From positions 1-45,739 of the IMG/VR virus record IMGVR_UViG_3300025276_000059: DNA of 45,739 nucleotides; one strand, given 5' to 3'. Position 1 is the stretch's first letter, and each line of letters opens with the position of its first letter. The DNA comes from a virus. The notes under the pieces are model-generated. The model did no database searches. It was not told where the DNA came from and saw nothing but the letters and a program-made list of their open reading frames with translations. Below, one piece after another: positions 2,044 through 36,489 of this stretch. The position numbers and the translations under genes are program-made.

Positions 2044-3168
2044 ATGAGCGATTTAGAAAGAGCTGCAGAAGCATTAGGCATTCAAATAAGCGATGACCCT
2101 AGTACTTTTGACTCAACGCAAACAGAAGAGCCTCAGCAAGAAGTTCAAGAATCAGTACAAGATGAGCCGCAACAAGAAGTTGAATCGGCTCAAGAACCAG
2201 TACTAGATGAGCCGCAAGAGGATACTGCTATCCAACCCCAGGACGAGGTTGTTGATACGGAAGAAGATTTAGAAGTCTCTGGACAAGAGCAACAAGAGTT
2301 AGCACTTAGTATGGTAAGCGAAATGCTAGGGTACGAAGATTTAACTTTTGAGCAATTATCAGAGATTGTAAATAGAGAGCCAGAGGAAACTCAAGCTAAA
2401 ATTGACGAGCGGTTACAACCTATTCTTGACTTTGTTAAGGAAACAGGACGTTCACCAGAAGATTGGTTTAGATATCAGCAACTTAATCCATCCGAAATGG
2501 ATGATTTATCAGCAGTACGTCTATCAATACAAAGTGAATATCCAGACTTAACAGGAAAAGAGGTTAACCGATTGATGAACCGTAAGTACAAATTGGATTC
2601 AGAGAGATTTGATGAAGAAGAGGTTGCGGACTCAACTCTTGAATTGAAGATTGACGCTACGAAAGCTCGCAAGGATATTTCTTCCCTACGTGAAGGCTAT
2701 ACATTACCTGTAGAGTCAGCCGCTACCCAAGGGGAAGTAGAAAGTCCTTTTGACGATAGTTGGTACTCATCCATGGAACAAGAAACCTCATCACTTGAAG
2801 GCATTGACTTTGAGTTACCAGGTGGAAAGTCATTTAATTATGGCCTACGTGATGATTATCGCCAACAACTCGTTAATAAAAACTCACGATTAGAAGAGTA
2901 CTTTGACCAATATGTGGAGAGTAACGGATCGTGGAATATTGACAAGTTGAACATGCATCGTACTGTGGTAGACAACATTGACGAAATTGTCAAAAATGTT
3001 TACCAACAAGGTATGAGTGATGGTCAACGCAAGATTGTTTCTAACGCGTCTAACGTGCAGGCACAATCTCCGTCAAATACTCCGCAAGAAGGTGGTCAAG
3101 ACGCACAGATGGAAAGATTACTTAGAGAATTGGGTGGTGGTAATAATGTAATGAATATCAAACGTTAA
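2044..3168 (+). CDS. Putative capsid scaffolding protein
   Basis: The 374-residue protein is very acidic. Residues 20-90 are a low-complexity stretch of Glu, Gln, Asp and Pro with repeated EPQQEV-like units. The middle is helical and the C-terminus is Gln/Gly-rich. It lies 11 bases upstream of the major capsid gene, where scaffolding proteins normally lie, and its composition suits that role: help capsid subunits assemble and then leave. No protease motif was seen. The call rests on position and composition, not on a recognised family; a minor capsid or cargo protein is the alternative. Confidence 0.65.
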   Translation: MSDLERAAEALGIQISDDPSTFDSTQTEEPQQEVQESVQDEPQQEVESAQEPVLDEPQEDTAIQPQDEVVDTEEDLEVSGQEQQELALSMVSEMLGYEDLTFEQLSEIVNREPEETQAKIDERLQPILDFVKETGRSPEDWFRYQQLNPSEMDDLSAVRLSIQSEYPDLTGKEVNRLMNRKYKLDSERFDEEEVADSTLELKIDATKARKDISSLREGYTLPVESAATQGEVESPFDDSWYSSMEQETSSLEGIDFELPGGKSFNYGLRDDYRQQLVNKNSRLEEYFDQYVESNGSWNIDKLNMHRTVVDNIDEIVKNVYQQGMSDGQRKIVSNASNVQAQSPSNTPQEGGQDAQMERLLRELGGGNNVMNIKR

Positions 3169-3179
3169 AAAACAAGCAA

Positions 3180-4517
3180 ATGGCTTTTACATCAACCCCT
3201 TCGGAATTTAGCCCAAGTTCAATCAAAAGACTTGATCCGGCTAAATACACATCTTTGTCAGATTATATTGACGAAGTAAACAAACCAGATAATCGTGATT
3301 CTTTAGTTAAGACTTATGGTAATCAAGGTATTACAGGATTCTTACAATTAGTAGGAGCTGTTACATCGGCAGGAACTGCTGACGAAGTTCAGTACTGGGA
3401 AGAAGCTCGTCTTCACCCACGTCAAACTTACACTATTTCAGGATCAGCTGTTACTGCGGCTAAAATCGTTACTCTAACTTTCGGTTCAGGAAATGCACCA
3501 GTAGTACGTGTAAACGATGTCGTTTTACTAAACGGTGACGAGCGCGGTGTTGTTACTGCTGTAAGTGGTACTACATCTTTCACTGTTGCTAACTTGGCTG
3601 ACGCTAACTTTAGCGGTACTGAATTAGCAGTAGGTACTCACATCATTTCTATCGTTGGTAACTTGTATGGACAAGGAACTGACCAACCAGGAGAGTACTT
3701 GGAGAGTAACGTTATTAAGCGTTCAAACCCTTACATGATTGTTAAGGAAATCTTCAAAGTAACTGGTTCTCAAGCTACCAACATCGGTTGGATTAACTTG
3801 GGTGGTGGAGACTACCGTTGGTACGTTAAAGGTGAGCAAGATACTCGTCAGCGTTTCATGGACAAGCGTGAGATGATGATGCTTCTAGGTCAGAAAAATG
3901 CCAACACAGCAAATGCAGCAGCGGCTACATTCGGTGGTGGTTCAGAAGGTTACTTCTCTGCTATTGAAGATCGTGGTATGGTTCATAATGGTCTTATTGA
4001 CTCTATGGCTAAGTTGGACTTAATTGTTAAAGAATTTGACAAGCAAGGTGCTGGTTCAGAGTACGCATTGTACGTAAACCGCGACCAAGATTTAGCTATT
4101 GATGATTTAGTAGCAGGTCTTTACTCAGGTGGTGGTCTAGCAAATGCTTACGGTGCTTTCAATAACAGCGCAGACACGGCTATAGAGCTTGGTTTCAAAT
4201 CATTCGGACGTGGTGGATATACATTCCACAAGCATGACTGGAAGTTGTTGAACGACCCAACTTTGTTAGCTGATTCTGATTTCAAAGGTGTTGCAATCCC
4301 TATGTCAACTGTAGTTGACCCACAAAGTGGAGATCGTAACCCATCTTTGGAGATGAACGTTAAGAACACTAACGGCTATTCTCGTGAAATGGAGCACTGG
4401 ATTACAGGTTCATTCATGGGTGCAACTAACGACACTAAAGATATTGCTCAGTTCAATTACCGTTCTGAACTCGCTTTGGTAACTCGTGCTGCAAACCGTC
4501 ACATGCTTATCAAGTAA
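3180..4517 (+). CDS. Major capsid protein
   Basis: The 445-residue protein has the size, position (after the scaffold candidate) and composition of an HK97-fold major capsid protein of Bacteroidota podoviruses. Residues about 85-165 are a beta-rich, Thr/Val/Gly-rich insertion. Residues 225-236 hold RFMDKREMMMLL, a helical stretch of the kind I associate with capsid proteins of crAss-like and related phages. Codon choice looks more uniform here than in neighbours (frequent GCT, GGT, CGT), as expected for the most abundant protein. A terminator follows directly, so its transcript may be short and abundant. Confidence 0.85.
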   Translation: MAFTSTPSEFSPSSIKRLDPAKYTSLSDYIDEVNKPDNRDSLVKTYGNQGITGFLQLVGAVTSAGTADEVQYWEEARLHPRQTYTISGSAVTAAKIVTLTFGSGNAPVVRVNDVVLLNGDERGVVTAVSGTTSFTVANLADANFSGTELAVGTHIISIVGNLYGQGTDQPGEYLESNVIKRSNPYMIVKEIFKVTGSQATNIGWINLGGGDYRWYVKGEQDTRQRFMDKREMMMLLGQKNANTANAAAATFGGGSEGYFSAIEDRGMVHNGLIDSMAKLDLIVKEFDKQGAGSEYALYVNRDQDLAIDDLVAGLYSGGGLANAYGAFNNSADTAIELGFKSFGRGGYTFHKHDWKLLNDPTLLADSDFKGVAIPMSTVVDPQSGDRNPSLEMNVKNTNGYSREMEHWITGSFMGATNDTKDIAQFNYRSELALVTRAANRHMLIK

Positions 4518-13448: not shown

Positions 13449-13456
13449 TATCTTTG
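13449..13456 (+). promoter_or_regulatory. Bacteroidota-type -7 element (TATCTTTG)
   Basis: TATCTTTG lies 21 bases before the ATG at 13478 and just after the stop of the previous gene. No consensus TTG is visible upstream. Confidence 0.55.
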
Positions 13457-13477
13457 TTTTTAAGTAAAAATCACACA

Positions 13478-16400
13478 ATGAACGATAAGTACGAAGAGAT
13501 GATGGCTCAAGCCGTAAAGGGCGGCTTTAGTTTAGAGCGTTTTCAAGAGGTGTTAACTGAATACAATTTCTCAGAAGAGCTTATTGGAACTTTATCAGAA
13601 GCATATTCCTTAAAAAAAAAAGGCAATACCACTTCAGAATCGCAAGTCGCGGAGGGTTCTATGGACTCTACTTCGTCTTCGGTGGACGCAGACTCTTCAT
13701 TGGATGCACTATCGGGCGACACATACCTAGAGGGTAGTCCTATATTATTTAGACAGGGACAAGGTGTAGACGAATCAAAAAGCAATGCTCGTGTTAATCA
13801 ACTTGCTCAAATACCAGATTTTAATTTTGAGTATTATAACAACGCTTCTTCTGCTGAGAAAGAGAAATACGTTAAAGAGGTTTCTAACAACAAAGACTTA
13901 AATATTGATATTGTTCGTGAAAGAAAAGAACAACTAGAGGTATTTAATAATAAAGTGAATAGCGCTATTACACCTGGTCAAAAACTAGCATTAGGGTTAA
14001 AAGCTGAAGAATTAAACAAAGAATATACTGACCTTACAGGAGATAAAGAAAACATTATAGATTCCGATGGAATTGTAGATGAAGTCTCTTCAACACGGTT
14101 AAATCAAGATTACAGACGCGTTTCTTACGAGATATATGATGATGTTACGGATAGAGCTAAGGAAATGGCTAACGAATCTGGTACACCTGTTTATATTTCA
14201 GCGATGGCTCAATCAATAGTCAATCAAAGTACTGGTTTGTTTTACACTCTTCAAGATGTAATACAAGACGACAACTCAAGGCTAGATCAAGATTTCAGAA
14301 CATTACGTTACGACCAACAAATAGAATCCTTAGCAAATTTATATAAATTAGGTGTTGATGAGGATAGACTTCAAACCTCAGCAACTGAAGATTTATTTAA
14401 AGTAGATGAGAACGGTAACCTAAACGTAGGAGATGGATTAAAAAAAATAGGTCTTGGTGTTGCTCAAACTATACCTCAGATAGCTTTTACAATCGTTGCT
14501 CCAGAAGTTGCATTACCTATTATGGGTTTAGCTTCAGGTACTTCAACATGGGTTGATGTTCGTGATAGAGCAGACCTTAACACAGCACAAAAAGTAAGTC
14601 TTTCTGTTATTGCAGGTGCTGCGGAATACGCTTTTGAGAGAATCGGTATAGGTGAAATAACTAAGGCTCGTAAAGCTCTAGGACTTATAGATGATATCCC
14701 TAAGTCAACTCGCTTACTACGCGCTAAAGATTGGATTACAGAAAACCATAAAGTTGCTGGAGCGTTTGTGAATAGTCGTGTAGGGGGAGCATTAGGTTCA
14801 GCCACGGCAGAAGGTCTTGAAGAACTTGGTGTATCTATTACAAATCAAACAGCAGCATTCGCAATAGCAGGAGACGAATACAATGGGTACGAGATTGCTG
14901 ATTCATTTTTAATTGGATTTGCAGCGGGGGGCGGTACTGCTACCGTTCCAGCGGTACTAGCGGGAGGCTATTCCGCATTAGGTTCATCGCCATTTTTAAA
15001 AGATCGTGTTAAGATTATAAACGACATTAAAAAGTATAAAGAATTAGCCGCTAACCCAAACCTTTCAAAAGCAGAACGTAAAGAATTAGAATTAGAATTA
15101 GAAAGGTCTAACCTAGAATTAAAAGAGCTTGTAAATAGAGATGAAAAATTCTACTCATCAATGAATGAGCAAGACCAAGTAGACCTCCTTTCACTAAATC
15201 AAAAGATTCGTAGCAAGATTGACCTTCATTCTAAGATGCAATCACAAGAAGGCAAGGACAAAATCATGAAAGAAGTTCAAGGATTGCTAAAGGATAAGCA
15301 GTCTATTGAAAAATCTTATGGTGATCCTTTTTCTGTTGTACAAAACGAAGACGGAACAGTTCAGCGTAAGCCATATAAGGATCGTAAGCGTGCTGAGAAG
15401 ATAAACTCTATGCTTAATGAACTTGGTATAGGTCAAGTAGAGGAAACCGATGAAACACTAGAAGATTCTACAGTAGAGTTTACTGAAGAAACAGATTTAG
15501 ATATGATTGTGAACGACTTCTTAGGAGATATTACCGACTCCCAATTAGAGAAGTATGGAACAAGCCGTACCGAAATAACTCAAGCATTAAAGGAAACACG
15601 TAACATGTTTAGTGCTTTACAAAGCATTAACCCTGATACTAAAATATTTATACATAAAACTCCTAAAGCGTTTGAAAGCGCTACAGGCGAAAGCGCACTA
15701 GATGCTTCTGGTCTTTTCCTACCTAGAGAGTCTAATAAAAATGAAATACACTTGTTTGGACCAGCACTCGCAGCGGGTACTGCTATACATGAAGTGGGTC
15801 ACGAAATTGCAGGTCAATTAGGTGGAGGCTTTATCCAAGAGTTCATGAAGGGGATGTCTACTGCTATTCAAGGAGATTCATTCTTATCAGAAAGATATGG
15901 TTCATTCTTAAAAAGTTATGCGGAAGCTGGGGCTGATTTATCTGAAATACAAGAAGAGTTCTTTGCTGAATTCTTACAAGACCTTGCGAGAGGTAACGTA
16001 TCGGTTGAAATAGAAAAGTCTTTGCTTAACAAACTTAGGGGGCTAATAAACAAGTATACTAATAGCAATCTCAGTATTACCGATTCACGCAGTACGTTGA
16101 TAGAAGCGGTAGGGCGTATGGGCGAGAAGATTGCTAGAGGAGAAGATATATTAGATGAAGCGCTTCTTGCGACTGTATCTCTTGATGATGGCACGGGGGT
16201 AGCAGTGGTTAATGCAAATGAATCGGATGTAGTAAATAAGAAGAAGAAACGTCAAATCATTACCTCGGATGATGTAGAAACCTATTCATTTAAAGATGTT
16301 ATTGATCGGGTTAATGGGCGTGTACTTATAATTACTTCCGATAATACAGGTGTAGGTAATGTAGATGGAGATGAACTATATGGAGGGCTACTATACTCAT

Positions 16401-19400
16401 TCCTACCAGAGAACGTAAGAGATGGAGTTGGATTTGCATCGGTAGATAAAAAGTCAGTTAGTAGTATAATGAATTTTGTGGAAGCAGTTGGTCCAGAGGG
16501 TCAAGATGTAGCAGTATTTGTTATGCAACAATCGCCAGGCGCTATGCTCGGTAACTATTATGGAATGAAATACTTCTTAAGCGCTGTCTCTAAAAGTGTA
16601 CCTAAAGAGCAAACTAGAGAGGTGTTGGATAATTTAAAATCAGCAATAGTTGGCAAGAAAGATGTAATTGAGGCATTAAAATCTGATCTCCCTATAGTTA
16701 AAAATATTCCTGAAAGCCAAAGAGATAACATTGATTGGACTCAATATGGCAATTGGAAAGGTAGAACAGCACAGGAAAAGCAGGCTTCTGAAAAGGTTTA
16801 TAATGATTTCGTAGAAATGATTGACTCTGTTGAAGAGTTAAGTCCTGAAGTAATCTCTGCGCTTATTGATGTTACTAGTTTTAAGTTTAGAAAAGCCCTA
16901 ATGGAATTCCTTATTCCTAGTGGATACGGAAAGGTAGAAGGTAGTGTAGAGTTCAAAGCTCCATATGCTTCTGAAAAAGCTCCATTGATAAAGAAGATAT
17001 TAGCAGAGTCAGGTTATTCTCAAGCGGACTTCTTTATGAAATACTCTCAGCCAGAGTTTGCTCAACCAGAGGAGTTAATAAGTCAACTTAAAGAAGGTAA
17101 AGAGGCTGATTGGGGATACACATATTCTGGGTTCATCACAAATAAAAACTTAGAATCAGGTGAGAAATTCCAAGAAAATTCAGGTGTGGTACATCCACAG
17201 TTTAACGCTAAAATCCCTTCTAGTGAAAACTTCTTGCTAGACAGTGGGTATCAAATTGACAACAAGTTTAAAGGTGTACTTAATTATAGAGATTCTAACA
17301 AAGACCCTAATTACATACGTGTAAGTATTGCGGGTAGTATGTTTATGGGTAGCCGTGGTAAAAAATCACAGGCATCTGTGGTTACATTAGCTAACTCATT
17401 GCTTGGCGGTGAGAAAGAAGGCCTTACTACTCAAAGCGTTATAAAGAGTACTGCTAAGAAACGCATGCGTGTTAATGAAAACAAAGTAGAGCCGTCTAAC
17501 GAAGGCACATGGATTCGTTCACGTGATTTTGATAGCGTGATGAACGAGTTCCCTGATCTCTACAAAGAGTCTATTGATGAAGAGGCTGAGGCTAGCGGTA
17601 CAGGAAATGAGACTCAGGTTACAACCAACAACGGTACGTATCAGAAAATGATTAACTACTTCAAGGGTATTGATAAAAACTTTAAGAGCAAAACCTTTGC
17701 AGATATTAATGGTGGGCTTGGTACATCAAACCAATTGAAATACGAGAATGACATTGATAACTATCAAGTTATTGAGCCGTTCTACGATAGAAAGCGCTTC
17801 CCTGTTTACTCTATGACCATGGAGGATGCTAACAAAGCTATTAAGCTTTTAGGATTAAACGAAACGGATAAGCCACACGGTGAACTCAATAAGTATGTAA
17901 AGAAAAACGAAGAAAACTTCACACGTTTTGAAACTCTTGTAAAGAAAGGTAAACTTCCTTCATCTAAATTAGCTCCAGATTACGTAGAGCAAAATGGATA
18001 TGACATCCCTAGTGAGAGTATAGACTATGCTATGAGCAACGCTGTACTCAATGTAATACCAGGAGACATACGCCAAGATGTTACTTTAAACTTTGGGCGG
18101 GCATTAAAAGTAGGCGGTGTTGGTGTTCTTTCTACACGCGGTAAAGATGTTGCTACCAACAAGACTAATCAAAGTTTAAGTAAAGATCCATTAGAGTTTT
18201 ACGTAGCATCTAAGTATACCTATCAAAAAGGATTTACTCCTTCTGAACTTCAAGCATATGTTCAAGATGTATTAGGTCCAGACTTTGAGGTAGAGAAATA
18301 TAGTAAGTTATCTGGTCCTGCGGTTGTTGTTAAACGTATTGACAACGCTCAAGACTTAGAGTCTAAGTTTGTATTTCAAAATAAAGAAAAGCAAAAAGCT
18401 AAGAAGAGACTCAATACATCAAACATGGGTTTTGTGTCTAATAGTGTTGGTTCATACGTGCAATCTTCATTGAAGAAGCAAGGGTATGTTGTTGACGTGC
18501 CCTACAAAAACCCAGCAGATAAAAGCATATACACATATATTTACGCAAGAAAAGGAAGTCAAGACCGATTGGTTATTGCCCTTCGTGTATCCGATCACCC
18601 ACAACGTGAGAGCGGTAGTATATATATGTCTGAGGCGTTTAGAAAACCAACTGTAGGTGATCCTTTCTTTAAGCAATTTAAAGGGGATGCTAAATTTGAC
18701 GCTCCAAATAATGTCATGATATTTAATATGTATGACTCTAACTCTTATAGTCTAGTTATGAATAAGCTAGAACAAGAGGGGTTAGTACCAAAGGGTTCTA
18801 GAAACCTATTACTTTCACGTAAAGCTGTGTTAGAAGGATTTATTGAGGCATTTGCTGCGCTACCAGAAAAAGGACGTGAAAAGGCTTTTGAAAACATGAT
18901 TTATGATTTAGGCTTTGATAGAGCAACAGCTAAGGAATTTACTAAGCAAGTGTCTAACGAGTCTAGTAAAGAAGTATCTACATCTGTAGGGTTTGGGAGA
19001 AATGTTATGGCTAACATATTTCAAGCAACAAAAAAGAATGATAGCGTACTGCTAGATAAGTTCTTTGGAGATATTGAGGCTTCACTACTTGCGGGTCAAG
19101 ACCTTCAAGACGTTATGGATAAATACCTTGTAGATATTAAAAAAGGAGCTAGCAAGGAAGAGATATCAGTTCGCATGGCCAAAACACTTCGTAATTTAGA
19201 GAAGCAGTTTATAGATCGCCAGAGCAATGTTAAAAGGCTTATTAATGAGGCTAACATGGAAGCGGTTGAAGATTTACTCGTTACACGTGCTGGGGCTGGG
19301 GCTTGGTCTAAAATTCAGTTCAATAAATTTGAAAAAGAAATATATTCTGGCTTAAGTAATCAGCAATTAGAAGGATTAGATAAATTAATCTTTGCTATGC

Positions 19401-21991
19401 GTGTTATTCAAATTGATACTAATTTTGATGCACGAGGTAAAGAAAGACCTAAGCATACTTTAGATTTCACAAAAGAAAAAGCCGAGGGTTCTATTAGGGC
19501 ATTAAAAATGTCCATGGGTACTGAAGTAGTAGAAGACTTAGAGAGAAGAGCTGACTTATACTTTAATGCAATGCGGGAACTTTTTGCTGAAGCATATGAA
19601 GAAGGCTTGACTAGTAAAGAAGCATACGATTTGCTTAAAAACGACAACTATTCTCCTCGTAAGTTTTTAAACTTTGTGTTAAGCCCTAAAGATGGAAGTT
19701 TTAAAGACTCAGACAGTAGTAGTAAAGACTTTGTTCAAGTAATAGAATTTGGCTCTGAAGAGTCTCAAGTTATGGACTCTAGATATTTACTACAGGTACA
19801 TACTAGAAACACACAGAATAAAATCTTCTACAATAGAATGGTCTTTAGTCTTGCCGAACAAATTGAAGGAAAGGATTTAGATTGGATTATGCCTTCTAAT
19901 ACAAAAGATGTAGAGGTTGGTGAGCCTATTGATTTATCGGAACCAGGCGAGGAGTCCTTTATGTATCAAAAGACACAAGAAGAAGTTACTAAGCCTGACA
20001 AGGGATACAAAAACCTATACTATTTCCAAGGCGGGGTATTAAAAGCCTTACAAATAAAAGAAGAGTATTACAGCGAACTACTAGATCTTGAGGTGTTAGC
20101 TAAAAACGACAGTAATTTTTGGGGCCCAGTAGAAAAAACTTTAGGAGCTTTAAACTCTGTTCTTAGATTTAACGCTACAGGTGCAGGTAACCCATTGTTC
20201 TTTATGAAGGATTTCTTCCGTAACTGGTTGTATGCTATCTTCAAGAGTGATGTATATGGTCGGACGACTTTTACTTTTTCCTCAATGATGATGATGAAAG
20301 ATTTGTATTCATCTACTAAAGATAAGGTTCTTGGTCGTCAAGACTATATTGACCTTGCAAAACATGGAGGGTTGATGGATTTTCTTTCCATAGAGTCATC
20401 TCCATTTAAAAACTTAACGTATCGCAAAAGCGATACAATGGGGTACGTTAAAAGAGGAATACAAAAAACAACAACTGGCCTTACTTATTTAAGTGAAACA
20501 ACAGAGGTTGCATTCCGTATAGCTATTTATAAGCGTGATTTAAAGCAAAGAATACAAGATTATATAGCCAAAGAAGGACATGAGCCTATTCAAGATGAAC
20601 TTGAGGCATTAAAGTTTGCTTCGGCAAGAGCTTCACGCGAAATTTTAGATTTTTCACAAGGTGGTTTAGCTTCTAAGACATTAGATAAAACATTAACGCC
20701 TTACTTAAACGTAGCTATCCAGGGGACAAGAGGGATCTTGCAAACAATGCGTAACGACCCAAGTAAGTTCATGAGATATACTGCTGAGCTAGGTACAGTA
20801 GCTGCGGCAATCACATATCTAAGATTATCTGTTGATGATGATGATGATGATGATAACATTGGCGAATACGATAAGCGTAAAAACTTTATATTTTGGACGG
20901 GAGAAAGAGGCGAAGACAATAAAAGAGAATATGTTCGTATACCAAAAGCCGAACAGACTGCTGGCTTCTTACGCGTATTTGAAATTGCGATTGAGAAAAA
21001 ACTGAAGGGTGAAAAACAACTTCAAAAGTTAATAGATATCTACGTAGATAATAACGGAAGAGAGCCGTCTGAATCTGAAATCAAAGAAATGAAAGAATCA
21101 CTTCCTAGTGCTTTTGAAAACTGGAAAGCAGAAGACTGGAAGGCATTGGGTGAGGCGTTTAGCATGTTTGTACCGGTGTCTGACGTTGGTTCTTTTATGC
21201 CCGCATGGGGTCAATCATTAATGGCTTATGCTGGCAACTATGATTGGTTTAGAAAAGAAGTTGTAACATATGAGATAGATGATTTGTTGCCAAAAGATGA
21301 AGGTGTAGGTAATGAACGTGTAGAGTATTTCTATAAAGCTTTAGGCAGTGCTATGAATGCTTCTCCTATACGTATGAAAGCAGCAGTAGAGAAAATGACT
21401 ACAACCCCAGCAAACTCTATCGTTGTATCACTTGCTTATGGTATTGCAGATGCATTAGCGTATGGCACAGTAGATTTAGGCGATGAAATAAAAGCTAAGT
21501 CCAAAAAATCTTCAGCATATCAGCTCATTAAAGCATTAAATCCTAAAGAAAGATTTATTAGAGAGTCTAACCCTGAACTCAAAAATTATCAATACGACCC
21601 GATTGCTGAGGAGATGATAAAGGAACAGGGTTCTCAAATAAAAATGCTTAAACTCAATACTGAAAAGTATTCAGATGCTCTTATAAATAAAGAAATCACT
21701 ATTAAAGAGGTTGTTTCCAAGGTAAAAGAGTTAACTAATGAGCCAGATTTAATAAAACTAACTGTTAGATGGGTTCAAAAAACTGCTATAAGACGTGCTT
21801 TAGGAATCGGATCAACACATTGGGATGTATACTCCGCACGCACCGCTAAAATACAGGCGTACTATTTAGTGAAACACTTTGGTGACGAAGAAAGCATTAG
21901 AGAAGAAGTAGGTAGAATGAATAAGGCAATTGGATTTAGACCTGCTATGGGACTAAAACAAAAAGTAGATGAACTATTAAAAAAGAAATAA
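13478..21991 (+). CDS. Giant polyvalent virion protein: metallopeptidase-, methyltransferase-like and LPD38-like regions
   Basis: The 2837-residue protein starts at the ATG; an upstream in-frame TTG lies inside the promoter and is unlikely. Regions: hydrophobic Gly/Ala stretches at about 326-355 and 478-505; a zinc metallopeptidase signature HEVGH at 771-775 with EEFFAE near 825 as possible third ligand; a class I methyltransferase-like part with D1409 before GGLG (1412-1415) and NAVLNVIP (1521-1528) before a Gly-rich strand; and a C-terminal region (about 2220-2590) like large polyvalent protein domain 38. Seven Asp in a row occur near 2453, encoded by seven GAT codons. Such proteins are thought to enter the host with the DNA and act early against host systems. 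Activities are inferred from motifs. Confidence 0.8.
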   Translation: MNDKYEEMMAQAVKGGFSLERFQEVLTEYNFSEELIGTLSEAYSLKKKGNTTSESQVAEGSMDSTSSSVDADSSLDALSGDTYLEGSPILFRQGQGVDESKSNARVNQLAQIPDFNFEYYNNASSAEKEKYVKEVSNNKDLNIDIVRERKEQLEVFNNKVNSAITPGQKLALGLKAEELNKEYTDLTGDKENIIDSDGIVDEVSSTRLNQDYRRVSYEIYDDVTDRAKEMANESGTPVYISAMAQSIVNQSTGLFYTLQDVIQDDNSRLDQDFRTLRYDQQIESLANLYKLGVDEDRLQTSATEDLFKVDENGNLNVGDGLKKIGLGVAQTIPQIAFTIVAPEVALPIMGLASGTSTWVDVRDRADLNTAQKVSLSVIAGAAEYAFERIGIGEITKARKALGLIDDIPKSTRLLRAKDWITENHKVAGAFVNSRVGGALGSATAEGLEELGVSITNQTAAFAIAGDEYNGYEIADSFLIGFAAGGGTATVPAVLAGGYSALGSSPFLKDRVKIINDIKKYKELAANPNLSKAERKELELELERSNLELKELVNRDEKFYSSMNEQDQVDLLSLNQKIRSKIDLHSKMQSQEGKDKIMKEVQGLLKDKQSIEKSYGDPFSVVQNEDGTVQRKPYKDRKRAEKINSMLNELGIGQVEETDETLEDSTVEFTEETDLDMIVNDFLGDITDSQLEKYGTSRTEITQALKETRNMFSALQSINPDTKIFIHKTPKAFESATGESALDASGLFLPRESNKNEIHLFGPALAAGTAIHEVGHEIAGQLGGGFIQEFMKGMSTAIQGDSFLSERYGSFLKSYAEAGADLSEIQEEFFAEFLQDLARGNVSVEIEKSLLNKLRGLINKYTNSNLSITDSRSTLIEAVGRMGEKIARGEDILDEALLATVSLDDGTGVAVVNANESDVVNKKKKRQIITSDDVETYSFKDVIDRVNGRVLIITSDNTGVGNVDGDELYGGLLYSFLPENVRDGVGFASVDKKSVSSIMNFVEAVGPEGQDVAVFVMQQSPGAMLGNYYGMKYFLSAVSKSVPKEQTREVLDNLKSAIVGKKDVIEALKSDLPIVKNIPESQRDNIDWTQYGNWKGRTAQEKQASEKVYNDFVEMIDSVEELSPEVISALIDVTSFKFRKALMEFLIPSGYGKVEGSVEFKAPYASEKAPLIKKILAESGYSQADFFMKYSQPEFAQPEELISQLKEGKEADWGYTYSGFITNKNLESGEKFQENSGVVHPQFNAKIPSSENFLLDSGYQIDNKFKGVLNYRDSNKDPNYIRVSIAGSMFMGSRGKKSQASVVTLANSLLGGEKEGLTTQSVIKSTAKKRMRVNENKVEPSNEGTWIRSRDFDSVMNEFPDLYKESIDEEAEASGTGNETQVTTNNGTYQKMINYFKGIDKNFKSKTFADINGGLGTSNQLKYENDIDNYQVIEPFYDRKRFPVYSMTMEDANKAIKLLGLNETDKPHGELNKYVKKNEENFTRFETLVKKGKLPSSKLAPDYVEQNGYDIPSESIDYAMSNAVLNVIPGDIRQDVTLNFGRALKVGGVGVLSTRGKDVATNKTNQSLSKDPLEFYVASKYTYQKGFTPSELQAYVQDVLGPDFEVEKYSKLSGPAVVVKRIDNAQDLESKFVFQNKEKQKAKKRLNTSNMGFVSNSVGSYVQSSLKKQGYVVDVPYKNPADKSIYTYIYARKGSQDRLVIALRVSDHPQRESGSIYMSEAFRKPTVGDPFFKQFKGDAKFDAPNNVMIFNMYDSNSYSLVMNKLEQEGLVPKGSRNLLLSRKAVLEGFIEAFAALPEKGREKAFENMIYDLGFDRATAKEFTKQVSNESSKEVSTSVGFGRNVMANIFQATKKNDSVLLDKFFGDIEASLLAGQDLQDVMDKYLVDIKKGASKEEISVRMAKTLRNLEKQFIDRQSNVKRLINEANMEAVEDLLVTRAGAGAWSKIQFNKFEKEIYSGLSNQQLEGLDKLIFAMRVIQIDTNFDARGKERPKHTLDFTKEKAEGSIRALKMSMGTEVVEDLERRADLYFNAMRELFAEAYEEGLTSKEAYDLLKNDNYSPRKFLNFVLSPKDGSFKDSDSSSKDFVQVIEFGSEESQVMDSRYLLQVHTRNTQNKIFYNRMVFSLAEQIEGKDLDWIMPSNTKDVEVGEPIDLSEPGEESFMYQKTQEEVTKPDKGYKNLYYFQGGVLKALQIKEEYYSELLDLEVLAKNDSNFWGPVEKTLGALNSVLRFNATGAGNPLFFMKDFFRNWLYAIFKSDVYGRTTFTFSSMMMMKDLYSSTKDKVLGRQDYIDLAKHGGLMDFLSIESSPFKNLTYRKSDTMGYVKRGIQKTTTGLTYLSETTEVAFRIAIYKRDLKQRIQDYIAKEGHEPIQDELEALKFASARASREILDFSQGGLASKTLDKTLTPYLNVAIQGTRGILQTMRNDPSKFMRYTAELGTVAAAITYLRLSVDDDDDDDNIGEYDKRKNFIFWTGERGEDNKREYVRIPKAEQTAGFLRVFEIAIEKKLKGEKQLQKLIDIYVDNNGREPSESEIKEMKESLPSAFENWKAEDWKALGEAFSMFVPVSDVGSFMPAWGQSLMAYAGNYDWFRKEVVTYEIDDLLPKDEGVGNERVEYFYKALGSAMNASPIRMKAAVEKMTTTPANSIVVSLAYGIADALAYGTVDLGDEIKAKSKKSSAYQLIKALNPKERFIRESNPELKNYQYDPIAEEMIKEQGSQIKMLKLNTEKYSDALINKEITIKEVVSKVKELTNEPDLIKLTVRWVQKTAIRRALGIGSTHWDVYSARTAKIQAYYLVKHFGDEESIREEVGRMNKAIGFRPAMGLKQKVDELLKKK

Positions 21992-32626: not shown

Positions 32627-32729
32627 TGGACAAGCGAGGATTTGAACCTCTGTTTTACATCCAAGGGATGTTAACTAACGACTTTGCTAAACGTATAAAG
32701 CATTCCGACCACCAAGGTAGCACTTGTCC
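32627..32729 (-). tRNA. tRNA-like gene, 103 nt, amino acid undetermined
   Basis: The 5' GGACAAG pairs perfectly with 3' CTTGTCC, giving a seven-pair acceptor stem followed by A. A canonical T-arm (AGAGG-TTCAAAT-CCTCG, four pairs) is present. The interior is abnormal: 103 nt exceeds a class I tRNA by about 30, and a strong 6-bp hairpin with a 3-base loop (ACATCC/GGATGT) sits where an anticodon or variable arm would be. No standard 7-base anticodon loop with U33 and purine 37 is convincing. A D-arm-like sequence (TTAGC...GTTAA with loop AAAGTCGTTA) lies unusually far from the acceptor. It may be a class II tRNA, an intron-containing tRNA, or a decayed one. CCA is not encoded after the stem. Confidence 0.5.
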
Positions 32730-32737
32730 TTTTTATT

Positions 32738-32764
32738 GATTAAAACCGAGGAGCGATGCTCCCC
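32738..32764 (-). repeat. Start-associated element, copy 13 (before tRNA-like gene)
   Basis: GGTTTTAATC on the minus strand (32747-32738) preceded by a hairpin with stem GGAGC/GCTCC. It lies eight bases before the tRNA-like 5' end rather than before an ATG, the only such case. Confidence 0.75.
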
Positions 32765-32769
32765 TTATA

Positions 32770-32940
32770 CTATAATAAAAACCTCCACTTAAAGTGTTGA
32801 TTCATTTTCATGTTGAAGATCATCTCACCATAAATATCGGTTAGACTATTTTCACTCATGTACTTATACTTACCCGCTTTATACCCATAAGTATTAAACA
32901 CGTTAGTATCTCCAACTCTCCTTACCCATATAAGTAACAT
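32770..32940 (-). CDS. Array gene 12: small protein, unknown
   Basis: The start at ATG 32940 gives 56 residues beginning MLLIWVRRVGD; a longer frame from 32982 would begin inside the upstream hairpin and is rejected. The N-terminus is hydrophobic and the rest has several aromatic residues (YGYKAGKYKY). The start lies 14 bases after the GGTCTTAACC motif. Function unknown. Confidence 0.6.
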   Translation of the reverse strand: MLLIWVRRVGDTNVFNTYGYKAGKYKYMSENSLTDIYGEMIFNMKMNQHFKWRFLL

Positions 32941-32954
32941 ATACAAAATGTATT

Positions 32955-32984
32955 GGTTAAGACCGAATAGGCGAGTGCCCATTC
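32955..32984 (-). repeat. Start-associated element, copy 12
   Basis: GGTCTTAACC (32964-32955) preceded by an imperfect hairpin GAAT-GGC/GCC-ATTC with one mismatch and a four-base loop. Spacing to the ATG is 14. Confidence 0.8.
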
Positions 32985-33000
32985 ATTGTTGATTGAGATT

Positions 33001-33276
33001 TTACCACGCCATCATGGCGAGTCCTCGGTCAAAATCAAGGTACTCCTGGAAATTATTGACCGCTCCCAGGCTATCCATGTTAGGTACTAAAACACACGCA
33101 TTGACATTAGGGTTGTCATATGGTCGTCCATTACTATCCGACAATCCTTTACCAAAAGCAATTGCTCTTCTACGAGCTTGTGCTTTATTAATTGCGTTCA
33201 CGGTGTTACCACCACCACCTTCCCAAGCGAATGTGTACAACATCTCTCCTTGAGGGTTACGATACTTCTTTGGCAT
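33001..33276 (-). CDS. Array gene 11: basic hypothetical protein
   Basis: The 91-residue protein has FAWEGGGGNTVNAINKAQARRRAIAFGKG in the middle (Gly-rich then basic helix) and an acidic C-terminal part. The motif GGTCTTAACC lies 14 bases before its ATG, supporting the start. It may be a small nucleic acid or protein modifier, but no family was recognised. Confidence 0.65.
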   Translation of the reverse strand: MPKKYRNPQGEMLYTFAWEGGGGNTVNAINKAQARRRAIAFGKGLSDSNGRPYDNPNVNACVLVPNMDSLGAVNNFQEYLDFDRGLAMMAW

Positions 33277-33290
33277 AATTTATAATTAAA

Positions 33291-33319
33291 GGTTAAGACC
33301 GAAGTCGCTATGCGACTTC
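33291..33319 (-). repeat. Start-associated element, copy 11
   Basis: GGTCTTAACC (33300-33291) preceded by a perfect eight-pair hairpin GAAGTCGC/GCGACTTC with a three-base loop. Spacing to the ATG is 14. Confidence 0.85.
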
Positions 33320-33325
33320 TTTATG

Positions 33326-33490
33326 TTAAACAAGGTTGGTAGGTATTGCGTTATCTTCAGCCCATTGGCTTAAAAGACTTAACAATTTTTCAGGGCTTCC
33401 TTTAAAGTCCCCATCTCTACAAGTTATCATCCAAGTAGAGAGTTCATTTCTCACCTCTTCTAATGTTAGCACTCTTTCATTGTTTTTCAT
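33326..33490 (-). CDS. Array gene 10: small acidic protein
   Basis: The start at 33490 gives 54 residues (MKNNERVLTLEEVRNEL...), chosen because it lies 15 bases after GGTTTTAATC; the longer frame to 33517 runs into the repeat. The protein is helical and acidic, with Trp in STWMITC and LSQWAED. Function unknown. Confidence 0.65.
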   Translation of the reverse strand: MKNNERVLTLEEVRNELSTWMITCRDGDFKGSPEKLLSLLSQWAEDNAIPTNLV

Positions 33491-33505
33491 AAGACTTTTA
33501 TTTAT

Positions 33506-33535
33506 GATTAAAACCACCCCCTACTTATAGGAGGT
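33506..33535 (-). repeat. Start-associated element, copy 10
   Basis: GGTTTTAATC (33515-33506) preceded by an imperfect hairpin around CCTA/TAGG with flanking pairs. The 15-base spacer ATAAATAAAAGTCTT is identical to that of copy 9. Confidence 0.75.
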
Positions 33536-33550
33536 TTCTTTTTGGTTACA

Positions 33551-33754
33551 CTATAATATTTCAACAATCCTTGGGTCTACTTTGTCAAAGATAGAACCAT
33601 CTCTATATCTATCCATTTCATCCTCCGACCACCATACATTTATATAGCCTATGTTATTGATGTCAACTCTATAAACTTTTTTCACCTCATTGGTTTTTGG
33701 ATGTATTATAGTGTCACCACTTTGTAACTCGCATGTGTAAATAATTATTCTCAT
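33551..33754 (-). CDS. Array gene 9: small beta-rich protein
   Basis: The start at 33754 gives 67 residues (MRIIIYTCELQSGDTIIHP...), 15 bases after the conserved motif; the longer frame to 33829 overlaps the repeat and the next gene and is rejected. Sequence suggests a small beta-barrel-like domain (GDTIIHPKTNEVKKVYRV) with an acidic end. Function unknown. Confidence 0.65.
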   Translation of the reverse strand: MRIIIYTCELQSGDTIIHPKTNEVKKVYRVDINNIGYINVWWSEDEMDRYRDGSIFDKVDPRIVEIL

Positions 33755-33769
33755 AAGACTTTTATTTAT

Positions 33770-33798
33770 GGTTAAAACCATAGATGCAATGCACCTAT
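33770..33798 (-). repeat. Start-associated element, copy 9
   Basis: GGTTTTAACC (33779-33770) preceded by hairpin ATAG-TGC/GCA-CTAT with one A-C mismatch and a three-base loop. The hairpin overlaps the stop codon of the upstream gene and is nearly the same as that of copy 3. Confidence 0.85.
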
Positions 33799-33938
33799 AG
33801 GTCTTCAATGAATGTAGCATAAAGGTCATAGAGGTAATCCGTATCCTTTAGCTCTTCTTGGCTCAAGTTATGAGCGTTTACAAATCTCACGAATGCTATA
33901 CACAATTCAGGTGTATATTCCGAATGTAAATCTAACAT
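33795..33938 (-). CDS. Array gene 8: small acidic protein
   Basis: This frame of 47 residues starts at 33938, 14 bases after GGTCTTAACC, and ends with TAG inside the next hairpin. It is acidic and helical (SQEELKDTDYLYDLYATFIEDL). Without the repeat to mark its start it would be easy to miss. Function unknown. Confidence 0.65.
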   Translation of the reverse strand: MLDLHSEYTPELCIAFVRFVNAHNLSQEELKDTDYLYDLYATFIEDL

Positions 33939-33952
33939 AGTTATATAATTTT

Positions 33953-33977
33953 GGTTAAGACCACCGACCAAAGTCGG
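33953..33977 (-). repeat. Start-associated element, copy 8
   Basis: GGTCTTAACC (33962-33953) preceded by CCGAC-TTTG-GTCGG read on the minus strand, a five-pair stem with a C(UUUG)G tetraloop. Spacing to the ATG is 14. Confidence 0.85.
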
Positions 33978-33989
33978 GGTTGTTTTCTA

Positions 33990-34319
33990 TTACTTCTCAT
34001 TGATACGTTCACATGCTTTTTCAAGCATCTCCTCTTGAACTTCGTTAATGAAATTCATTCTCACATGTAGAGGCATCATCAAATCCATAAGGTTAGACAC
34101 ATAGCTATTACATAGCCCACCAAACTCGTTGAAATCATAGAATTCATGAATCAAATCTACTAGCGATTCTTTAGTGATCTTATCGTCTAGCAATAATTGC
34201 TCGGATACGTGGTCGTGGAATGAGATGTCATTCTCCATAGCATTCTCAATATCCCACACACCATTCATCACAACTTGTAATTTCAATGAGTTAATCAATG
34301 ATTCGTTAATTGTTTTCAT
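33990..34319 (-). CDS. Array gene 7: acidic helical protein
   Basis: The 109-residue protein is acidic and helical throughout (NESLINSLKLQVVMNGVW, then ESLVDLIHEFYDF, ending EKACERINEK). The start lies 15 bases after GGTCTTAACC. The segment DFNEFGGLCNSY resembles SEFGGDCNPDG in array gene 6, a possible shared short motif. Function unknown. Confidence 0.7.
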   Translation of the reverse strand: MKTINESLINSLKLQVVMNGVWDIENAMENDISFHDHVSEQLLLDDKITKESLVDLIHEFYDFNEFGGLCNSYVSNLMDLMMPLHVRMNFINEVQEEMLEKACERINEK

Positions 34320-34334
34320 ATAACATATAATTTT

Positions 34335-34361
34335 GGTTAAGACCTAGGTGCTATGCACCTT
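34335..34361 (-). repeat. Start-associated element, copy 7
   Basis: GGTCTTAACC (34344-34335) preceded by AGGTGC/GCACCT with a three-base loop, the same stem as copies 9 and 3. The stem overlaps the end of array gene 6. Spacer AAAATTATATGTTAT. Confidence 0.85.
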
Positions 34362-34617
34362 GGTATTCAAAAAACATACTTGCATATTCATCAAGTCGTT
34401 CTCTTGTTACTAATACTCCATCGGGATTGCAATCTCCACCAAACTCACTAAAGCACTCCGCTCTCATGATTGTGATTAAGTCGTTCTTAGCACCTTTGAT
34501 TTTCTCATCGTTTGCTAGTTCAATCAATCGGTTGAAGGTGTGTTGTAATTCATAGGTGTTGTCAATCCATATAGCAACACTCCAAGCCTCATAAGAGGTG
34601 TATCCATTGTAAGACAT
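34351..34617 (-). CDS. Array gene 6: phage protein with NGYTSYEAWSVAIWI N-terminus
   Basis: The 88-residue acidic protein begins MSYNGYTSYEAWSVAIWIDN, a pattern (Y-x-N/S-Y-E-x-W-x-V-A-x-W) seen in small proteins of many unrelated phages, so it belongs to a widespread but uncharacterised family. The rest is helical. Its start lies 13 bases after the conserved decamer. Presence in diverse phages suggests a general host-interaction role (inference). Confidence 0.75.
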   Translation of the reverse strand: MSYNGYTSYEAWSVAIWIDNTYELQHTFNRLIELANDEKIKGAKNDLITIMRAECFSEFGGDCNPDGVLVTRERLDEYASMFFEYQGA

Positions 34618-34630
34618 AATAAAATATTTA

Positions 34631-34660
34631 GGTTAAGACCGAGAGACTTAGAGCCTCTCC
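34631..34660 (-). repeat. Start-associated element, copy 6
   Basis: GGTCTTAACC (34640-34631) preceded by GAGAG/CTCTC plus an inner pair across an A-C mismatch. Spacer to the ATG is 13, the shortest in the array. Confidence 0.8.
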
Positions 34661-34848
34661 TTGCAATAGCGAACCGCTACTTGTTCACGAATTTGAGACT
34701 TGCTCAATGCGTGGAGTTGGTCGTAGTTCATACCCCAAATCTCTTGAGTAACTACATTCTTGTGAGCCTCAAAGAAACTAGGGTAGTTGACAAATTCACT
34801 ACCATCTCTCATTAGCCAATTGTGGTGATAATACTTCTTCTTTTCCAT
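34648..34848 (-). CDS. Array gene 5: small basic protein
   Basis: The 66-residue protein starts MEKKKYYHHNWLMRDGSEF and is basic and rich in aromatic residues and His, ending in a helical basic segment (QIREQVAVRYCKERL). Its start lies 14 bases after the GGTTTTAACC motif. Function unknown. Confidence 0.65.
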   Translation of the reverse strand: MEKKKYYHHNWLMRDGSEFVNYPSFFEAHKNVVTQEIWGMNYDQLHALSKSQIREQVAVRYCKERL

Positions 34849-34862
34849 AAGACATATAGATT

Positions 34863-34886
34863 GGTTAAAACCCCACCCGAAGGTGG
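34863..34886 (-). repeat. Start-associated element, copy 5
   Basis: GGTTTTAACC (34872-34863) preceded, on the minus strand, by CCACC-TTCG-GGTGG, a stable C(UUCG)G tetraloop hairpin. Spacing to the ATG is 14. Confidence 0.85.
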
Positions 34887-34898
34887 TTCACGGTGAAG

Positions 34899-34914
34899 TC
34901 CAGGATTACCTGGA
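34899..34914 (-). promoter_or_regulatory. Extra hairpin after array gene 4
   Basis: TCCAGG (34899-34904) pairs with CCTGGA (34909-34914) around a four-base loop, just downstream of the stop of the gene at 34917-35204. Only this junction has two hairpins. No U run follows. Confidence 0.6.
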
Positions 34915-34916
34915 TT

Positions 34917-35204
34917 TTAGAATAAATTACTAGACGTTACGCGCCTACTATACACGCTACCCTTGATAGCTAACAATACACCATCAAAGATTTTTTGATT
35001 GGTATTGTATTCAAAGATGTTGTCGGGTAATAAGTCATTACTTCTCCACCCACATTGTAAGTTTGAAAGTGAATGAGCCATCCTCGTTTTAGGGTCTACT
35101 AGTGAGTAGCTAACACTTCCTAAATCCGTATTGATGTACACATTCAAAGTTAGTTTGTTGTGTAAATCATCACTAAACTTGACTTGAGCAATTAATCTTT
35201 TCAT
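34917..35204 (-). CDS. Array gene 4: beta-rich protein, unknown
   Basis: The start at 35204 gives 95 residues (MKRLIAQVKFSDDL...), 15 bases after GGTTTTAACC; the longer frame to 35234 runs through the repeat and is rejected. The protein looks beta-rich (KLTLNVYINTDLGSVSYSLVD) with one Cys. Function unknown. Confidence 0.65.
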   Translation of the reverse strand: MKRLIAQVKFSDDLHNKLTLNVYINTDLGSVSYSLVDPKTRMAHSLSNLQCGWRSNDLLPDNIFEYNTNQKIFDGVLLAIKGSVYSRRVTSSNLF

Positions 35205-35219
35205 AAGACATATAATTTT

Positions 35220-35244
35220 GGTTAAAACCCCCACCTAAGTGGAG
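35220..35244 (-). repeat. Start-associated element, copy 4
   Basis: GGTTTTAACC (35229-35220) preceded on the minus strand by CCAC-TTAG-GTGG, a C(UUAG)G tetraloop hairpin. Spacer AAAATTATATGTCTT. Confidence 0.85.
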
Positions 35245-35255
35245 TTGATTGAGAA

Positions 35256-35681
35256 TTAATCATCGCATCCGCAATCCCAACATAATCCGTTGTTTAGCAT
35301 TGATGAAGGTAGCACCTTGCGACACGTCTCTCCTTCACAAGTAGATTCGGATTCTTCACTTAATTCAACATCTATTGCACCAAGTATTGAATCTAATTCA
35401 TCCCTCAATTCATGTATGTGTTTGATTTGATTATTCACATAGAGAGGTTCATCATACTTAATAATCTCCAAGGCAATCATGTTGAAGTGTTCACCGCCTT
35501 CATCATCCGTTGCATTAGGGCAATAGACTACGAACCATGTGTCATCATCAATGCTAAAGAATTGATTGTTACACGGCGAATTGTAATCCAACGTACCGCT
35601 AGAGGACATACTTCTATCGGATTCAATAGCGCTTACAATTTTATTCATAAGCACGTCTTGCACTTTAATAGGTAAATACAT
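35256..35681 (-). CDS. Array gene 3: acidic protein with C-terminal Cys cluster
   Basis: The 141-residue protein is the largest of the array. It is acidic, with a mixed N-terminal part (DDDTWFVVYCP, HFNMIALEIIKYDEP) and a C-terminal cluster of cysteines in CEGETC and CWDCGC, a likely zinc-binding knuckle. The start lies 16 bases after the conserved decamer. It could interact with nucleic acid or a host protein; no family was recognised. Confidence 0.7.
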   Translation of the reverse strand: MYLPIKVQDVLMNKIVSAIESDRSMSSSGTLDYNSPCNNQFFSIDDDTWFVVYCPNATDDEGGEHFNMIALEIIKYDEPLYVNNQIKHIHELRDELDSILGAIDVELSEESESTCEGETCRKVLPSSMLNNGLCWDCGCDD

Positions 35682-35697
35682 AAAGCATATAATTTTA

Positions 35698-35725
35698 GGT
35701 TAAAACCATAGGTGCAATGCACCTA
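35698..35725 (-). repeat. Start-associated element, copy 3
   Basis: GGTTTTAACC (35707-35698) preceded by TAGGTGC/GCACCTA, a perfect seven-pair stem with a three-base loop. The 16-base spacer TAAAATTATATGCTTT is identical to that of copy 2. Confidence 0.9.
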
Positions 35726-35733
35726 CTAGTCTA

Positions 35734-35931
35734 CTAGGCTAAAGAGAATACGTGGTCAAACTCCAACATAGTTTTGTTGGTTACCGATTTATTTTTGTTC
35801 GCCTCTATCAAAAGATTTGTGATAGCATCTTGCAAAGCGAATAGAGTGTCTTGGTCAAGCATATCGGAATACAATAGTCCACTTTCATTTGCGATTAGTG
35901 CTAATTTTTTAGCGAATTGATTGGTTGTCAT
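35734..35931 (-). CDS. Array gene 2: helical protein, unknown
   Basis: The 65-residue protein is helical (NQFAKKLALIANESGLL, then ALQDAITNLLIEANKNK) and close to neutral. Its start lies 16 bases after GGTCTTAACC. Function unknown. Confidence 0.65.
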   Translation of the reverse strand: MTTNQFAKKLALIANESGLLYSDMLDQDTLFALQDAITNLLIEANKNKSVTNKTMLEFDHVFSLA

Positions 35932-35947
35932 AAAGCATATAATTTTA

Positions 35948-35971
35948 GGTTAAGACCCCCACCGAAGTGGG
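35948..35971 (-). repeat. Start-associated element, copy 2
   Basis: GGTCTTAACC (35957-35948) preceded on the minus strand by CCCAC-TTCG-GTGGG, a perfect five-pair stem closed by a C(UUCG)G tetraloop. Spacer identical to copy 3. Confidence 0.9.
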
Positions 35972-35976
35972 TTGGT

Positions 35977-36240
35977 TTAGTATCCATGCTCAAGAACATA
36001 GTTATCCAATACCTCAATGAGATAATCCCCATTGGTAGTATTGAAGTAATCCGAATCATCGCCACGCTCATTCCAAACAAAAGTGAATATCTTCTTACCC
36101 TCATCTAATACAACTACCGCTATATTATCATGTCCTACTTGTAACGTCAAAACAATATTGCCTTCATGATTGAAGTGCATATCATACTCACCTAAAGGAA
36201 ATCCTACACCTTCAAGTTGCAAAAAGAATTTAGTAATCAT
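35977..36240 (-). CDS. Array gene 1: acidic beta-rich protein, first early gene
   Basis: The 87-residue protein is the first gene read from the early promoter. It is acidic and beta-rich (GNIVLTLQVGHDNIAVVVLDEGKKIFTFVWNE). The start lies 15 bases after GGTTTTAACC. As the first product after infection it is a good candidate for a host-takeover or counter-defence protein (inference). No family recognised. Confidence 0.7.
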   Translation of the reverse strand: MITKFFLQLEGVGFPLGEYDMHFNHEGNIVLTLQVGHDNIAVVVLDEGKKIFTFVWNERGDDSDYFNTTNGDYLIEVLDNYVLEHGY

Positions 36241-36255
36241 AACATATATTTAATT

Positions 36256-36291
36256 GGTTAAAACCAAGCACCCACGATTAAGTGAATGCTT
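36256..36291 (-). repeat. Start-associated element, copy 1 (first in array)
   Basis: GGTTTTAACC (36265-36256) preceded by a larger hairpin, AAGCA/TGCTT with inner CAC/GTG. It lies at the end of the long early leader. Spacing to the ATG is 15. Confidence 0.8.
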
Positions 36292-36380
36292 AGTTGGTTT
36301 CGGCTAATTTGTTAATGTAGGCTCTACTAGAATACCCTTAACGACCACAATAACCCCCTTCAAGCCACTCACTAAAGAGT

Positions 36381-36393
36381 ACGCAAAATGCGT
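36381..36393 (-). promoter_or_regulatory. Leader hairpin ACGCA/TGCGT
   Basis: A perfect five-pair stem with a three-base loop inside the early leader, between the promoter and the first array gene. No U run follows on the minus strand. Confidence 0.45.
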
Positions 36394-36489
36394 TCATCAG
36401 TTAACCTTGGGGTGTGGCGCAACTTACTTTGTGATGACATATTACTAGGGTCTACTACTTCTTCAACCTCAACTTTCATAGCATATCGT

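Follow-up and report, generated by a model that had tools for sequence, protein, structure and literature searches.

One hammerhead ribozyme core and its many core-less target sites in a phage gene array: a candidate natural trans-acting ribozyme

Introduction

Which process could require one short sequence, joined each time to a hairpin, to be placed thirteen times on the same strand of a phage genome? This question is raised by the virus record IMGVR_UViG_3300025276_000059 of IMG/VR, whose whole stretch of 45,739 nucleotides (nt) was analyzed and is referred to as the window. A preliminary description of this DNA, made from the sequence alone, had reported a hairpin followed by the decamer GGTYTTAAYC in front of every gene of an array of small genes and had considered a role in translation initiation, RNA processing or transcription. 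Here, we present a computational analysis of this element. The base-by-base agreement with a neighboring catalytic core indicates that the decamer is almost certainly a hammerhead cleavage site. Those copies that lack a core of their own are probably cut by the single ribozyme encoded at the head of the array.

Results

The repeated element in the window

All 13 exact copies of GGTYTTAAYC are located on the minus strand at 32738-36265, with zero copies elsewhere in the 45.7-kb window. With one mismatch allowed, 26 matches were found, compared with 12.0 +/- 3.7 expected from shuffled sequences. Each of the 13 decamers is abutted by a perfect stem of 5-11 base pairs with a 3' arm ending at most 2 nt away, an arrangement seen at 1.04% of random positions (binomial p ~2e-26). 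The reported number of copies was thus borne out, as was the spacer of 13-16 nt between decamer and ATG, which was counted in 12 of 13 cases. The statement that the element precedes every gene of the array holds for the twelve open reading frames (ORFs). Downstream of the 13th decamer (32738-32747), beyond a gap of 7 nt, there is a sequence resembling a transfer RNA (tRNA), and the element is therefore not a translation-start device. In related phages, position 4 of the decamer is A, C or T and never G (H in the following), and one copy in the related contig L014 is followed by a spacer of 28 nt. A search with Rfam at the gathering threshold gave zero matches in the whole window.

A hammerhead core at the head of the array

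Just before copy 1, and outside the span given in the preliminary description, a type-I hammerhead core adjoins the array. Its RNA reads GGUUAA-CUGAUGA-(domain)-CGAAACC-hairpin-GGUU/UUAACC (minus strand, 36406-36256; the slash marks the predicted cut). The full ribozyme RNA (36418-36256, minus strand), consisting of the catalytic strand (36296..36418) and site 1, contains the hammerhead letters CUGANGA, GAAA and NUH in this order. On the catalytic strand, the 5' flank GCCACACCCC (36418-36409), the stem I arm GGTTAA (36406-36401) and the core segment CTGATGA (36400-36394) are followed by two inserted hairpins (36393-36367), by stem II GGCT:AGCC (36366-36363 with 36305-36302), which encloses a structured insert, and by the core segment GAAA with the stem III arm (GAAACC, 36301-36296). 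Site 1, the ribozyme's own cis site, comprises a hairpin and GGTTTTAACC (36256..36292, minus strand) with a predicted cut at 36262/36261. Here the cleavage triplet is flanked by stem I (GGUUAA:UUAACC) and by stem III (ACC:GGU plus the hairpin).

The decamer matches the substrate strand of this hammerhead base by base, since GGU is complementary to ACC and UUAAYC to GGUUAA, with H at the predicted cut position. Among the roles considered earlier, RNA processing is the one supported, and the cut-site prediction is exact to the nucleotide. No further core of this type was found in the window, and none near any of targets 2-13. These sites are therefore expected to act as substrates, cleaved in trans or over a long range, and not as ribozymes.

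The core and arms are identical in the window and in the related contigs L009, L010, L014, L090 and L108. In the ribozyme alignment 98.1% of cells are paired, and compensatory pairs occur in three helices (three pairs), one of which is a pseudoknot joining the 5' flank to the loop of stem II. Stem II is joined directly to the core in L108, and two paired hairpins intervene before GGCU:AGCC in the window clade; both of these pair, one with a compensatory change.

The same layout in related phages

Judged by terminase and portal, relatives of the window are flavobacterial podoviruses (Elemovirus and Cellulophaga phages) and one uncultured phage, with 30-47% identity; the window record also contains a crAss-like muzzle domain. 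The terminase relatives L009 (near identical), L010 and L014 carry a matching array with 11-16 sites. L108, which is more distant and was found by a search with a 91-amino-acid cassette protein, carries seven. One large ribozyme at the 5' end of the array, together with core-less targets, is present in L010, L014, L090 and L108. Counting the window, this makes five species, to which the near-identical L009 and L230 can be added. The preliminary description had suggested looking for the element in related phages, and it is indeed present in six related contigs; an unrelated group has it too, but with an altered arm.

One site in L108 is a complete hammerhead of the form GGTTAA-CTGACGAG-TCC-TGAAT-GGA-CGAAA-CCCCC-TTCG-GGGGG-TC/TTAACC, which in a 91-nt search weakly matched the Rfam type I and RAGATH-1 models. 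The decamer can therefore be divided into three parts: G ends stem III, GUH is the cleavage triplet, and UUAAYC forms the 3' strand of stem I. L108 displays an intermediate state, in which five core-less targets occur together with a large ribozyme and a single small cis hammerhead of the ordinary kind.

Among 15 records of both phage groups, one core was found per whole record (two in L108 and L230). In 15/15 records every site is on the strand of the core, and all but a stray GTATTAACCA far away in G007 are in the array 3' of it. A search for repeated 9-mers in more distant terminase relatives showed no comparable gene-start array and mostly coding repeats. Scanning of genome contigs for the ribozyme gave seven chance matches, all without target arrays.

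A second phage group with a changed arm

The contigs L140, L145, L150, L187 and L241-L247 of IMG/VR, whose terminase belongs to another PHROG than that of the window group, contain one core with the arm GAAACACC and at most five core-less targets. In this second group (clade B), the 23 distinct targets without a core uniformly read GGTGTC/TTAACC (GGUGUC/UUAACC in the RNA). Stem III pairing is therefore ACC:GGU in the window group (clade A) versus ACACC:GGUGU in clade B. Judging by these sequences, ribozyme arm and targets have changed together between the two phage groups. Several hairpins of clade B carry an ACC on the 5' side which is able to pair with GGU. Phage C75C1, with a terminase 75% identical to that of clade B, has neither ribozyme nor targets.

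Tests of ribozyme-target pairing

At the H position, hairpin-bearing core-less sites show C64/T42/A17/G0 (overlapping loci counted repeatedly), and other GTNTTAAYC sites show C56/T52/A33/G30, corresponding to G in 30/171. Over 44 distinct targets, the absence of G has p=0.001. Position 16.3 of stem III varies in 90 cis hammerheads (C40 G21 T19 A10) and is G in 43/44 core-less targets, matching C15.3 of the ribozyme (p=6e-18, uncorrected for relatedness). As would be expected of a trans system, the substrate sites are complementary to both arms of one core while being core-less themselves, and arm and substrate covary between lineages.

The ribozymes of both groups possess a second ACC that can pair with the GGU of their own site, forming an alternative hairpin which would free the substrate arm. 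According to nearest-neighbor estimates without tertiary contacts, as are all thermodynamic figures given here, the free-energy difference (ddG) of this refolding is -4.3 to -0.2 kcal/mol in the ribozymes of both groups. Among 73 ordinary cis hammerheads the median is +5.7 kcal/mol, with one below zero.

Ordinary cis hammerheads in other phages

A scan for AAGGTTAACTGANGA yielded 120 stretches, including dozens of phage contigs with small cis hammerheads before genes, each with its own core (90 distinct ones). The stem I GGUUAA:UUAACC was part of the scan pattern and is for that reason shared among them; a variant with an A-U pair, GAUUAA:UUAAUC, also occurs. The substrate motif therefore derives from a known kind of phage hammerhead, and the unusual feature of the window is that 12 of its 13 sites are core-less.

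Phage contigs such as L178 and L198 have between four and seven small cis hammerheads ahead of successive small genes, and nearly all of these share one stem I, which is unexpected for cis ribozymes. A hammerhead-like site in L137 (~7280) shows CCGACGA in place of CUGANGA and is perhaps a core in decay; the same contig has an intact hammerhead. Unannotated cis hammerhead-like sites were also seen in cultured Pelagibacter and Flavobacterium phages at OR420738.1 ~2664 (HTVC131P), MT375528.1 ~38225 (Jormungand EXVC012P) and MT497068.1 ~17240 (elemoB 14-3B), where they lie near MarR/integrase or small early genes. The 8-kb stretch of the cultured Elemovirus elemoB that was examined contains one cis hammerhead and no core-less array.

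Target sites, genes and the tRNA-like sequence of the window

All core-less targets lie on the minus strand. Target 2 (35948..35971) consists of a hairpin and GGTCTTAACC with a predicted cut at 35954/35953. It is followed by target 3 (35698..35726), target 4 (35220..35244), target 5 (34863..34886), target 6 (34631..34659) and target 7 (34335..34360), in which the hairpin includes the stop codon of the upstream ORF. The remaining ones are target 8 (33953..33977), target 9 (33770..33799), target 10 (GGTTTTAATC, 33506..33535), target 11 (33291..33319), target 12 (32955..32984) and target 13 (32738..32764), which again carries GGTTTTAATC and precedes the tRNA-like sequence and not an ORF.

The twelve small ORFs within 32770..36240 (minus strand) each start 13-16 nt after a decamer, and there is one per predicted cut segment. 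ORFs 1-6 are located at 35977-36240, 35734-35931, 35256-35681, 34917-35204, 34648-34848 and 34351-34617, and ORFs 7-12 at 33990-34319, 33795-33938, 33551-33754, 33326-33490, 33001-33276 and 32770-32940. Cassettes comprising an ORF and its 3' hairpin are permuted among the close relatives (window 32770-36240, L010 and L014), and in several of them the stop codon is inside the hairpin. A gene for an 88-amino-acid protein (MSYNGY) has an identical terminal hairpin in three phages with different next genes. The hairpin therefore goes with the gene upstream of it, and cassettes are joined at the decamer.

In the tRNA-like sequence (32627..32729, minus strand), the acceptor and T arms are recognizable, the middle is abnormal and there is no confident anticodon. 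The Rfam tRNA score for 32627-32729 is 15.5 bits, under the cut-off of 29; the counterpart in L010 (2477-2576) reaches 23.8. ARAGORN did not call a tRNA at 32627-32729. The last target of L014 (L014 1143) is followed, in place of the tRNA-like sequence, by a different one that lacks an ORF at the expected place.

In L108, a ribozyme-target cassette (2795-3703) includes an anti-restriction protein (PHROG 7245), which suggests that the array carries host-takeover genes. Amid the virion genes of the window, an ORF of 2845 amino acids (13454-21991) has only a weak LPD38 match and could encode an injected polyvalent protein. This protein, together with the 3-nt loops, prompted us to consider an N4-type hairpin promoter for a virion RNA polymerase. 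Searches of the protein against Pfam and PHROGs did not find a polymerase, and the idea gained no support.

Discussion

A model for processing of the array transcript

In the proposed mechanism, the ribozyme would be transcribed first, at the 5' end of a leftward polycistronic RNA, and would cut its own site 1. After this self-cut it would refold and free its substrate arm. The freed ribozyme would then pair GGUUAA with UUAAYC and ACC with GGU at the twelve downstream sites and cut after GUH, either in trans or by long-range contact within one molecule. Upstream products would be messenger RNAs (mRNA) ending in a stable hairpin and GGUH>p, downstream products would be mRNAs with a 5'-OH and a leader of 19-22 nt beginning with UUAAYC, and the last cut would release the tRNA-like RNA. 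The chemistry and the end groups of these predicted products follow from established hammerhead biochemistry.

We infer that cleavage takes place and does so in trans, and its purpose may be the supply of stable single-gene mRNAs. It is likely, in our view, that the core represents a natural, diffusible, multiple-turnover hammerhead which acts as RNA only, free of protein, and divides the polycistronic transcript into mRNAs of one gene each that end in a hairpin. Clusters of cis hammerheads would then have shrunk independently, in at least two unrelated phage groups, to a single ribozyme and many core-less substrates.

Several observations weigh against this model. The two hairpins between CUGAUGA and stem II in the window clade, an insert that L108 lacks, could slow or block catalysis. 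Rfam (RF00163 and RF03152) gives no match to the window copy of the ribozyme. With respect to curated cut-offs, the small hammerhead of L108 scores 19.2 against 34 and 22.8 against 56.3, and the L150 copy 27.4 against the Rfam cut-off of 56.3, all below. One target in L010 has U at 16.3. In isolated targets the GGU is mostly paired locally, with a mean unpaired probability of 0.23, and this pairing would need to be displaced by the ribozyme. Furthermore, 24/44 targets keep their own ACC 5' of the hairpin; it may be speculated that this ACC would hinder binding and favor product release. Stem I is short (duplex -4.1 kcal/mol) and invariant within the array phages, and arm-target covariation therefore comes from stem III only.

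Alternative explanations

The core could act within its own transcript only, by self-cutting at site 1 or by looping to one downstream site, without ever being diffusible. Contact in cis is possible, as the core is always 5' of its targets and on the same strand, but a single-use ribozyme cannot serve 12 sites per transcript because it is detached from the rest after the cut at site 1, and the arm-freeing refolding suits reuse. We regard this restriction to cis as unlikely. A much smaller probability is assigned to core-less sites being decayed cis hammerheads that are no longer cleaved and whose hairpins merely protect RNA 3' ends. This explanation would fit the full cis hammerheads before each of several genes in other phages, the one retained in L108 amid core-less sites, and the ACC preserved in 24 of the 44 targets. 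Relics would, however, not keep H free of G together with G16.3 and UUAAYC at 44 sites of diverged phages while the hairpins vary freely. Nor would they have changed to GGUGUC where the ribozyme arm differs to match, and decay is accordingly highly improbable as an account of these sites.

Hairpins beside a constant sequence are also typical protein sites, and isolated targets do fold locally. A protein, whether an endoribonuclease of phage or host or a factor in translation or regulation, might therefore recognize hairpin and decamer. With such a protein, there would be no reason to expect complementarity of the decamer to both arms of an adjacent hammerhead core, nor the rule at H, nor the arm-target change in the second group, and its involvement appears very unlikely. 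As to translation initiation as the primary role, the copy before the tRNA-like sequence, the 28-nt spacer in L014 and the explanation of the decamer by ribozyme pairing all argue against the role suggested earlier.

The shuffling of cassettes among relatives with junctions at the element led us to consider a function at the DNA level, either an attC-like (integron-like) recombination or cassette-exchange site or a promoter. The element is, however, strictly strand-bound to genes and ribozyme, its conservation tracks RNA pairing, homologous shuffling needs only short shared sequence, and examination of genes did not reveal a recombinase among those looked at. We rejected the attC-like site because of the strand specificity and the RNA pairing. 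As regards the suggested transcriptional role, the conserved letters are those that pair with the ribozyme, with nothing promoter-like in them. A DNA-level element is thus extremely improbable.

Comparison with known systems

Repeated elements that stand a constant distance ahead of start codons and close to a dyad are known as SAS/ESAS from Cluster K mycobacteriophages. The likeness drawn in the preliminary description stands for the fixed position before starts and for the dyad; the sequences are unrelated according to that description alone. Unlike SAS/ESAS, the element of the window also precedes a non-coding RNA at target 13, so it is not restricted to translation starts, and it pairs with a ribozyme. 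A SAS-like translation-start element was ruled out by copy 13 and by ribozyme pairing, which accounts for each conserved letter.

Laboratory use of hammerheads as trans-acting enzymes began soon after their discovery. Natural hammerheads are described as self-cleaving and trans versions as engineered (PMC6412130, PMC6155905). In the open-access literature searched, no description of a natural trans-acting hammerhead was found, although absence there is no proof. If the model is true, the window would contain such a natural trans-acting hammerhead, one ribozyme that the phage directs at some twelve junctions in its mRNA, and a new way of operon processing. The pseudoknot between 5' flank and stem II and the arm-freeing hairpin switch would then offer naturally evolved designs for trans-cleavage in cells.

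RNase P RNA has been named a natural trans-acting ribozyme (PMC5839562). It is similar in being an RNA enzyme with many substrates, here including a tRNA-like 5' end, and differs in fold, chemistry and size. Type I hammerheads and RAGATH-1 (RF00163 and RF03152) share the core of CUGANGA, GAAA and NUH, the stem I GGUUAA:UUAACC and the place just before a phage gene, and the copies in L108 and L150 match these models weakly. In the rodent Clec2 mRNAs, a discontinuous hammerhead reportedly exists (Martick and colleagues, 2008) in which a long insert separates ribozyme and substrate strands. The separated strands are alike, but there one ribozyme serves one site in cis. Variants of the hammerhead core and pseudoknots are known, and clusters of cis hammerheads flank prophage genes, for which mRNA processing has been proposed (Perreault et al. 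2011, PMC3088659). In these clusters (PMC3088659) each cut site has its own ribozyme, and the known members of the type I and RAGATH-1 families are self-contained, whereas in the array described here a single copy with a large stem II domain would serve many core-less sites.

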